The position numbers and the translations under genes were made by a program. From contig CAIKZY010000097.1 of assembly GCA_903832025.1 (NCBI GenBank), positions 1 to 44,155 on the forward strand: a stretch of DNA of 44,155 nt. Direction: 5' to 3'. Below are positions 656 to 7,360 of the stretch, in pieces; position 1 is the first letter of the stretch; every line of letters starts with the position of its first letter. The notes under the pieces were generated by a model, which ran no database searches, was not told the DNA's origin, and was given only the letters and a program-made list of their open reading frames with translations. The DNA comes from an uncultured Actinomycetes bacterium (GTDB lineage Bacteria; Actinomycetota; Actinomycetes; S36-B12).

Positions 656-1099
656 CTAGGCGATCTTGGTCTGTGGAGATCTGACTTTCTTGGCTGCGAC
701 CTTTCTCGACGCAGGCTTGTTTTGGGGGTTCGCTGTCGGATTCCGTTTCGCGGAATTCGCTCGCGTGGGCTTCTTCGCAGGTGCCGTCAATGGGATGGCT
801 ACATCACCGATATGCATGACAAGTTCCAGGGTTCCGCCTACCGCCTGTGCGTACGCGGCCAGAGTGCCCACTTCAGTGCGCGAGAGATCTCCGTTCTCAA
901 TGCGCGATACGCGAGATTGGTCAATGTCGATGCGCTCAGCGAGCTGCTCCTGCGTCATGTGCTTGGCTTTGCGCACGTCGGCGAGCCGGTGCGCCCTGGA
1001 TTCGGTCAGGATTTCGTCACGCGCCTGGGCAATGTGAGCCGTATCGCCGGGCCGCTTTGCCAGCAGTTCCTCCAACGTGACATACGACAACTTACTCAT
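656..1099 (-). CDS. XRE-family antitoxin, HigA-like
   Basis: A 147-aa helix-turn-helix DNA-binding protein, the likely antitoxin and autorepressor of a type II toxin-antitoxin pair. The N-terminal part (SKLSYVTLEELLAKRPGD) is followed by an XRE HTH at about residues 40-100 (MTQEQLAERIDIDQSRVSRI). The C-terminal 40 residues are lysine/alanine/proline-rich and probably disordered; this basic tail is longer than in minimal antitoxins. The start overlaps the upstream toxin frame by 4 nt, which suggests translational coupling, and GGGGAG precedes the ATG. The toxin partner is frameshifted, so the antitoxin may be a solitary survivor. The HTH family call is secure; the antitoxin role comes from context. 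Confidence 0.85.
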   Translation of the reverse strand: MSKLSYVTLEELLAKRPGDTAHIAQARDEILTESRAHRLADVRKAKHMTQEQLAERIDIDQSRVSRIENGDLSRTEVGTLAAYAQAVGGTLELVMHIGDVAIPLTAPAKKPTRANSAKRNPTANPQNKPASRKVAAKKVRSPQTKIA

Positions 1100-1477
1100 G
1101 ACGAACTCCCCGTTCTTGGCTTCCTTGCATTTGCTTGCTGATGGATCTGTTCCACATGCGCGTTGAACCGCTCATCTGCAACAGGAATATTCTCCCCGTA
1201 CCACTGCTTCCATTTATTGGTCTTGTCGCCAGCCACCAACACGATCGCTTGGCGCAGCGGGTCGAAGGCGAACAACAAACGGATATGTGTCTCGTGGACG
1301 CAACTCCTTCATGTTCTTGTGACGCGATCCCTTGACCGTGTCCACGAACGGGCGTCCCAGAGCTGGCCCATCCACTCCAAGTGCTTGCAACGCTGCAACG
1401 ACCTGGCCGTACTCGGCTTCGTCAAGAGTCAGCATCCAGTCCGACACCTCCTCGTTGATCAAGATCGACCACGTCAT
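1096..1477 (-). pseudogene. RelE/HigB-type toxin, frameshifted
   Basis: The N-terminal half starts at ATG 1477 (MTWSILINEEVSDWMLTLDE) and runs through KGSRHKNMKELRP, typical of HigB/Gp49-like mRNA interferases. The C-terminal half (LLFAFDPLRQAIVLVAGDKT, then KWKQWYGENIPVADERF) lies in another frame. The frames meet near 1285-1292, where a net 1-nt insertion or 2-nt deletion separates MKELRPRD from HIRLLFAFDP. Joined, they make a normal toxin of about 125 aa that overlaps the antitoxin start by 4 nt. Toxin loss with antitoxin retention is a common decay route. A sequencing indel or programmed frameshift is not excluded. Confidence 0.8.
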
Positions 1478-1483
1478 CGCCCA

Positions 1484-1523
1484 ATCATATGACTCAAGAA
1501 ACATATGACGCAAGAGACATATA
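1484..1523 (-). promoter_or_regulatory. TA promoter with 16-bp spaced operator repeats
   Basis: On the minus strand a -35 TTGCGT (1513-1508), an 18-nt spacer and a -10 TATGAT (1489-1484) sit exactly 6 nt before the toxin ATG at 1477, which predicts a leaderless mRNA. On the plus strand CATATGACTCAAGAAA (1486-1501) and CATATGACGCAAGAGA (1502-1517) are tandem 16-mers, followed by a third CATAT at 1518. The repeats cover both promoter elements, as expected for operators of the XRE antitoxin. The stretch 1524-1730 contains nothing I recognise. Confidence 0.65.
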
Positions 1524-1730
1524 TTGGCCGAGCCAGACTTCACACTCCAATTTGAGAGGTACCGGCCGCTATGCGCCGTTGATGCCATCGACAGGAACTA
1601 CACCGCCACGATTAGGAGCCGCCGCTCATACTCACGGGCACAAATGGAAGCACCAGGCCCTATCCATACAACTACATTCTCTGCTGACTTACCGCTGACT
1701 TACTCCTTGCAGCGGCGTCAGAAAACATGC

Positions 1731-6857: not shown

Positions 6858-6863
6858 AGATTA
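6858..6863 (-). promoter_or_regulatory. -10 box of the small ORF-PDZ-UPF0182 operon
   Basis: TAATCT on the minus strand lies exactly 6 nt (GGATAC) before the ATG at 6851, predicting a leaderless operon mRNA. Confidence 0.5.
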
Positions 6864-6990
6864 CGCCGCTGCGGACATCGTTGGTGCCCCGGTGGTCAGT
6901 TGATGACCCCGTGGCATGCGGCCACTGTCGAACCACGGATTTGGTCCACGCACACAAATGCTGGAACCACCACGGTGGTCGTACATGGCA

Positions 6991-7059
6991 AGACCCCCCA
7001 GGTCTCTGGTCTCCATTCGCCTTCCCCTTGCGAATGAAGCCTGTTATCCCGGGGGGTCT
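6991..7059. other. Nested hairpin element with C6/G6 outer stem
   Basis: The outer arms AGACCCCCC (6991-6999) and GGGGGGTCT (7051-7059) pair perfectly. Inside, CATTCGC (7014-7020) pairs with GCGAATG (7030-7036) around a CTTCCCCTT loop. A small palindrome ACCACCACGGTGGT sits upstream near 6966-6979. The element lies in a 509-bp gap (6852-7360) without a supported gene, downstream of the leftward Nudix gene. It could be a terminator, a structured small RNA or an mRNA leader; I do not recognise a known RNA family. Confidence 0.55.
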
Positions 7060-7126
7060 TAACGCGCTGAACCTAAGCAGTCACACGCGGTGAGTCAACG
7101 CATTGAGCAAACTTCAGGATTGGGCG

Positions 7127-7267
7127 TGTGGACAAGGTGTGGATTGTGTGGGGATGGGGGGACAGTTACGTGTGGATATGCGGTGCATACGCCTGTGCAT
7201 GGCGTTGGGGAAAAGCTCAGGACACGCGCTGTACGCAGGTAAAATCTGCTGTGGATGATGTGGATAA
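7127..7267 (-). other. Cluster of six DnaA-box-like 9-mers
   Basis: Read on the minus strand: TTGTCCACA (7127-7135), CAATCCACA (7138-7146), ATCCCCACA (7147-7155), ATATCCACA (7171-7179), TCATCCACA (7250-7258) and TTATCCACA (7259-7267). The last is the perfect consensus box and the first is the variant common in high-GC actinobacteria. All six point the same way and two pairs abut directly. The palindrome AAGAAATTTCTT follows at about 7267-7278. No dnaA, dnaN or rpmH lies in the window, so this is unlikely to be the main oriC as usually placed. A DnaA-titrating or DnaA-regulated locus is possible. Confidence 0.6.
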
Positions 7268-7360
7268 GAAATTTCTTGAGATCCCAATGCAACAGGTGTG
7301 ACGCACGGGAAGTTCAGCTCCACATCCCCCCAGGGACATCCCCGTCATGACACGTGCAGG

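Follow-up and report, generated by a model that had tools for sequence, protein, structure and literature searches.

A phased array of DnaA boxes precedes a conserved structured RNA in actinobacteria and probably controls its promoter

Background

The actinobacterial phylum includes both pathogens and antibiotic producers, and to our knowledge the timing of replication initiation in these bacteria is poorly understood. Intergenic clusters of DnaA boxes lying away from oriC are known as DBC in Bacillus and D78 in Streptomyces. The datA and DARS loci of Escherichia coli are likewise intergenic DnaA-box clusters away from oriC, while double boxes are found at the DnaA-regulated promoters of nrdA, polA, purH and nrdD; in vivo, E. 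coli DnaA prefers a spacing of 2 or 3 bp between boxes, which puts their starts 11-12 bp from each other (PMC11317965). In Caulobacter, dnaB belongs to the DnaA regulon, according to work cited in PMC8203912. A full-text literature search found no described small RNA under the control of DnaA.

Here we analyse a 44,155-nt stretch of actinobacterial DNA (hereafter the window), which is the entire contig C97 of a 2.21-Mb, 187-contig genome. Directly seen in it and its relatives are a phased array of boxes, a same-strand TTGAC/TAnnnT promoter at whole-turn distances from the array and a covarying hairpin, all three of which are kept together. From comparison of these sequences we consider it likely that the array is a DnaA-binding upstream control region of the promoter for a short structured RNA.

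Results and Discussion

A one-strand array of boxes

The minus strand of the window between 7127 and 7267 carries seven TCC[A/C]CA cores within 141 bp, all on that one strand, as against two in the runner-up 141-bp stretch. Dinucleotide shuffles of the window (n=300) gave at most four same-strand cores per 141 bp, and shuffles of the 509-bp gap alone gave 0-5 cores, mostly 0-1. An earlier note on this DNA had listed six minus-strand 9-mers, and all of them were found where it placed them (Table 1). One of them, ATCCCCACA (7147-7155), is in a better register as CCATCCCCA according to the alignment of relatives, and the count of six omitted a seventh box, TTTTCCCCA. The single perfect consensus box (TTATCCACA) and the high-GC variant (TTGTCCACA) that it recognized were borne out, as was the palindrome adjacent to the cluster, AAGAAATTTCTT, which overlaps box TTATCCACA and in whose place an AT-rich motif is kept in relatives. 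Missing from that note were the promoter and the hairpin RNA that follow immediately downstream; it is with these that the cluster is conserved. The note had also proposed a motif scan for other TTnTCCACA clusters: by pattern search the genome contains 21 perfect TTRTCCACA boxes, and these are paired only at C8 (the dnaA promoter), at C33 and in the present cluster.

Table 1. Sequence features of the box array, the promoter, the hairpin RNA and the adjoining gene in the window
Feature	Position	Strand	Remarks
AT-rich palindrome AAGAAATTTCTT	7266..7277	none	distal end of array; in relatives aaaTTTctt ahead of first box
DnaA box TTATCCACA	7259..7267	-	perfect consensus; aligns with first box of relatives
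DnaA-box-like TCATCCACA	7250..7258	-	9 bp from neighbouring box, outside the common 11-bp phase
Weak box TTTTCCCCA	7206..7214	-	overlooked in earlier note; seen in array analysis and alignment of relatives
DnaA box ATATCCACA	7171..7179	-	motif match and alignment of relatives
Box CCATCCCCA	7149..7157	-	conserved register; core variant TCCCCA, also used at oriC
DnaA box CAATCCACA	7138..7146	-	11 bp to next box
DnaA box TTGTCCACA	7127..7135	-	high-GC actinobacterial consensus; promoter-proximal
-35 element TTGACT	7093..7098	-	TTGAC conserved across families
-10 element TAGGTT	7070..7075	-	17-bp spacer to -35; alignment of relatives
Conserved structured RNA, 71-nt hairpin	6990..7060	-	folding and covariation
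-10-like TAATCT	6858..6863	-	6 bp ahead of ATG of next ORF
Small membrane-protein ORF, 69 aa	6642..6851	-	first gene past the RNA; then PDZ/Lon_C and UPF0182 genes

The array boxes resemble those of oriC

In 47 arrays, which were oriented partly by box count, TCCACA numbered 133, where 6.8 would be expected, and TCCCCA 80, where 7.8 would be. The corresponding values for the oriC regions of the same group are 48 against 3.9 and 25 against 3.9. The ratio of A to C at the variable core base is 0.62/0.38 in the arrays and 0.66/0.34 at oriC, and the 5' YYR flank is similar in both sets; the base preceding the core is more commonly G in the arrays (0.56), whereas oriC favours A (0.67). The dominant spacings between array boxes are 11, 12, 22, 23, 33, 44 and 45 bp, of which 11/12 bp from start to start places the 9-mers 2 or 3 bp apart and the other peaks represent further turns. 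Hence the arrays show two features looked for in a DnaA-controlled promoter, namely boxes like those at the oriC of the host group and pairs 2-3 bp apart. Because the array boxes agree with the group's oriC boxes in their core, in the variant that is tolerated there (C for A at the fourth core base) and in their 5' flank, DnaA is the predicted binder. Beyond the boxes, a conserved stretch after the first box (GCAGGTCA) and, in several families, TCCACAGCGACAC could be sites of a second factor.

A promoter phased with the array

Downstream of the boxes a sigma70-type promoter on the minus strand (7098-7070) reads directly into the hairpin. The alignment of relatives displays a constant order of elements: the AT-rich motif with the first box, the middle boxes, the boxes spaced by ~11 bp, TTGAC-N17/18-TAnnnT and the hairpin. 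In 41 units the gap from the last box to the -35 element is 7-8, 17-18, 28-30, 40-41 or 51 bp, i.e. it varies in steps of one helical turn. For 35 of 36 cases the distance to the RNA is 47-48, 56-59 or 66-68 bp. Thus, array and promoter are linked on one DNA segment with a constrained distance between them, as looked for in control by DnaA. Whole-turn spacing between boxes and -35 element is what one would predict if DnaA, once bound, has to face RNA polymerase; for a pure titration site it is unexpected.

The hairpin is a conserved structured RNA

The hairpin has two stems, an outer one of ~12 bp and an inner one of ~10 bp, with the internal loop GATAAC/GAGA between them and AAGGGGAAG as the apical loop, and this fold is common to twenty sequences. 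A first alignment contained double changes in 19 of the 24 predicted pairs, and a larger one of 62 matches from many families contained compensatory changes in 23 of 24, though these counts are inexact and lean towards the model, to which the alignment was fitted, and two of its rows are from the opposite strand. In this 62-match alignment 93.8% of cells are paired, as against 72.4% after shuffling and ~50% when partners are slid by one column. G-U pairs number 120 and A-C pairs 19, an excess that favours an RNA on the stated strand over its complement. The compensatory changes thus exceed those of shuffled and slid structures on the stated strand, as expected of a conserved structured RNA.

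A search of Rfam 15 at the gathering score returned no match to the hairpin, the only match in the window being a tRNA at 1780-1853, and in a permissive scan near the hairpin the best weak match was to sX13 on the opposite strand (17.6 bits, compared with a required 50). Membership of a known RNA family was rejected on these two scans, and no occurrence of the loop sequence was found in the literature. The hairpin is best read as a new small-RNA family, for which a covariance model is now in hand. As a target of the RNA the rpmH leader was considered and rejected: the loop complement GCCTTCCCCT is present in the genome of the window and absent as such in the seven relatives in which rpmH was found.

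Distribution and co-conservation of array and RNA

The covariance model R1 matched 106 out of 148 genomes in the order and 101 out of 297 in the class, with rough E-values and counts that are non-independent since the genomes are related; each genome gave a single match, with the one exception of G087, which gave two. The model R2 added members from f58, a family of another class of the phylum, with arrays upstream. A phylum scan with R2, in which 12 candidates per genome were scored, recovered the RNA in at least 5 of 396 genomes, such scans of large genomes giving lower bounds on presence in other families. A smaller and more thorough R2 run found matches in 7 of 36 formerly negative genomes; these are weak members from further families, several of them with upstream arrays.

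The earlier note had held that a lack of conservation of the boxes in the same gap of relatives would speak against its proposal; a box array is kept at this place in the syntenic gap of most members of the family. Among the families inspected, an array lies ahead of the RNA in f1-f3, f5-f7, f10, f13, f14, f16, f17, f19, f26, f30, f32, f33, f36, f38, f41 and f44. The pairing of array and RNA is maintained even where the neighbouring genes differ: in G040 the RNA is on the other strand and 5 kb away from the PDZ/Lon gene, and in G044 it is on another contig. In genus g2 most of the array was lost together with the promoter and the RNA. The array is also missing in the units L116, L117, L123 and L366.

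The family f31, with small genomes of ~1.2-2.2 Mb, has the RNA and its promoter and no array (L138, L142, L144, L146 and L166). This suggests that the RNA can work without control by the array, and the f31 loci constitute a natural experiment on its control by DnaA.

Arrays ahead of dnaB and nrdR

The strict pattern TCCMCA-5-TCCMCA-6-TCCMCA has more than 100 matches in the 297 genomes of the class, compared with 2 for a reversed control. Outside family f22, 36 of 71 such three-box matches are just upstream of the RNA. In 20 other regions, whose genes were named by eye from terminal translations, seven arrays precede dnaB, five precede nrdR, two are beside a pyrophosphatase-like gene and some are oriC-like; dnaB and nrdR were then confirmed by family searches. 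In relatives, 400 bp of upstream sequence contains 5.1 boxes at dnaB and 3.5 at nrdR, the control values being 0.23 and 0.39, respectively. Both arrays are present in the genome of the window (dnaB, L322 on C55; nrdR, L343 on C90) and in most relatives, and the dnaB array shares with the RNA array the AT-rich motif at the first box. Model R2 found no copy of the RNA downstream of the dnaB and nrdR arrays. On this comparative footing, the array-RNA unit is best read as belonging to an actinobacterial DnaA regulon together with dnaB and nrdR.

The two pyrophosphatase-associated cases, L286 and L288 of family f30, have three-box arrays adjoining the 3' end of a gene that resembles inorganic pyrophosphatase. 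A second array of the same layout (CTATTTCTTATCCACA ... TTATCCACAAAGATATCCACAGG, TTGCAC-N17-TAGCCT) occurs in the genome of the window at L008 1375-1640 (C33:42.9-43.1 kb). The locus is part of an island that also encodes a type I restriction-modification system and a TrwC-type relaxase. Behind the array comes another short GC hairpin (fold z -4.97), different from the RNA and with a weak R2 score of 22.6 bits; this hairpin may be unrelated or a mobile-element mimic.

Alternative explanations

The earlier note left three options for the boxes, and the comparative evidence supports well both their identification as DnaA boxes and its option of a DnaA-controlled promoter. Its option of a relocated or second replication origin, to which the AT-rich motif adjoining the cluster gives some colour, we regard as extremely improbable and reject. 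The genome has a canonical rpmH-dnaA-dnaN locus on contig C8, which agrees with the remark in the note that dnaA is absent nearby, and the gap between dnaA and dnaN there is a normal box-rich oriC with 11 boxes, mixed TCCACA and TCCCCA. The array, for its part, has no initiator gene near it, lies neither beside dnaA/dnaN nor at a strong origin-like GC-skew switch, of which there is none across the window, and offers an AT-rich stretch of only ~12 bp in place of a DUE. A regulator other than DnaA that recognizes TCC[A/C]CA in the arrays is very unlikely. It could account for the extra conserved stretches, GCAGGTCA and in part of the families TCCACAGCGACAC, as second-factor sites, but it would have to share with the oriC boxes of the group the core, its tolerated variant and a similar 5' flank, and also to reproduce the spacing that DnaA is known to prefer, and the remaining targets of the arrays are replication genes.

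The reading that the array is chiefly a DnaA-titrating or reactivating/inactivating locus like datA, DARS or the Bacillus DBC, with the RNA promoter as a mere neighbour, draws on the dense packing of strong and weak boxes that all point the same way, their location ~1.1 Mb from oriC in the 3.41-Mb genome G359, the rough maintenance of the chromosomal neighbourhood and the fact that any number of boxes titrates some DnaA. We nevertheless consider it unlikely: a pure titration site would have no need of whole-turn spacing to the -35 element or of coupling to one RNA that is invariant across changed contexts, the same arrays stand ahead of dnaB and nrdR, and genus g2 lost most of the array jointly with promoter and RNA. 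An isolated titration site is at odds with conservation of the array together with the promoter and hairpin RNA downstream. It is also rather improbable that the hairpin is a 5' leader, i.e. a riboswitch or attenuator, of an operon of the small ORF, PDZ-Lon and UPF0182 genes transcribed from a DnaA-regulated promoter. The strand and order of these elements in the window and in many f1 genomes accord with a leader. Against this, the 69-aa ORF, which is kept ahead of the PDZ/Lon gene in relatives, has its own -10-like element right at its start codon, which suggests that the hairpin is its own transcript, and the mRNA of the ORF is probably leaderless. Moreover, the RNA is placed elsewhere in G040 and G044, the next downstream ORF is convergent in L087, and the occurrence of the RNA as a single copy in each genome, without a constant gene after it, favours a stand-alone RNA. 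Elsewhere in the window (656-1588, minus strand), an HTH protein and an adjacent small ORF resemble, by eye, a toxin-antitoxin pair of the HigB/HigA type.

A model for the array-RNA unit and its implications

For the preferred reading of the array as a DnaA-binding control region, we envisage that DnaA, probably DnaA-ATP, would assemble on the closely set strong and weak boxes as at oriC, the strong boxes nucleating assembly and the TCCCCA boxes filling as DnaA-ATP rises. DnaA on one face of the DNA would then touch RNA polymerase and modulate the promoter, the sign of this regulation being either activating or repressing. The output of hairpin RNA would follow the DnaA/initiation cycle together with dnaB and nrdR, which carry the same arrays. 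With less assurance, we suppose that the RNA might act in trans, either through its invariant loop AAGGGGAAGG or by way of a bound protein.

More tentatively, and with slightly less than even confidence, we propose that a class-wide small RNA under direct DnaA control links replication initiation with a post-transcriptional programme or acts back on DnaA or replication, so that with dnaB and nrdR it would form a conserved DnaA regulon with a hitherto undescribed RNA member. If true, the conserved RNA, being under an array of DnaA boxes like that of oriC, would be a small RNA linked to the cell cycle, the RNA family and the dnaB and nrdR arrays would make up a testable DnaA regulon, and the ordered strong and weak boxes with their phasing would provide a model, coupled to transcription, of how DnaA oligomers assemble outside oriC.

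Comparison with known systems

The datA and DARS loci, DBC and D78 work by titrating DnaA or by changing its nucleotide state, whereas here array, promoter and RNA are one conserved unit. The E. coli double-box promoters share with the present arrays strong/weak pairs 2-3 bp apart upstream of replication and nucleotide-supply genes (PMC11317965); unlike them, the actinobacterial arrays have ~5-9 boxes of one orientation over ~140-200 bp, whole-turn phasing to the -35 element and a small RNA as product. The Caulobacter regulon has DnaA boxes upstream of dnaB, as here, but in a different phylum, and that source mentions no RNA member (PMC8203912). Ms1 and 6S RNA are, like the hairpin, conserved RNAs of actinobacteria, but they are ~160 nt or more in length, with HAD-hydrolase synteny in the case of Ms1 (PMC9130861). 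The hairpin has neither property, being ~71-75 nt long, without an Rfam match and set in a NUDIX/M48/PDZ-Lon neighbourhood.
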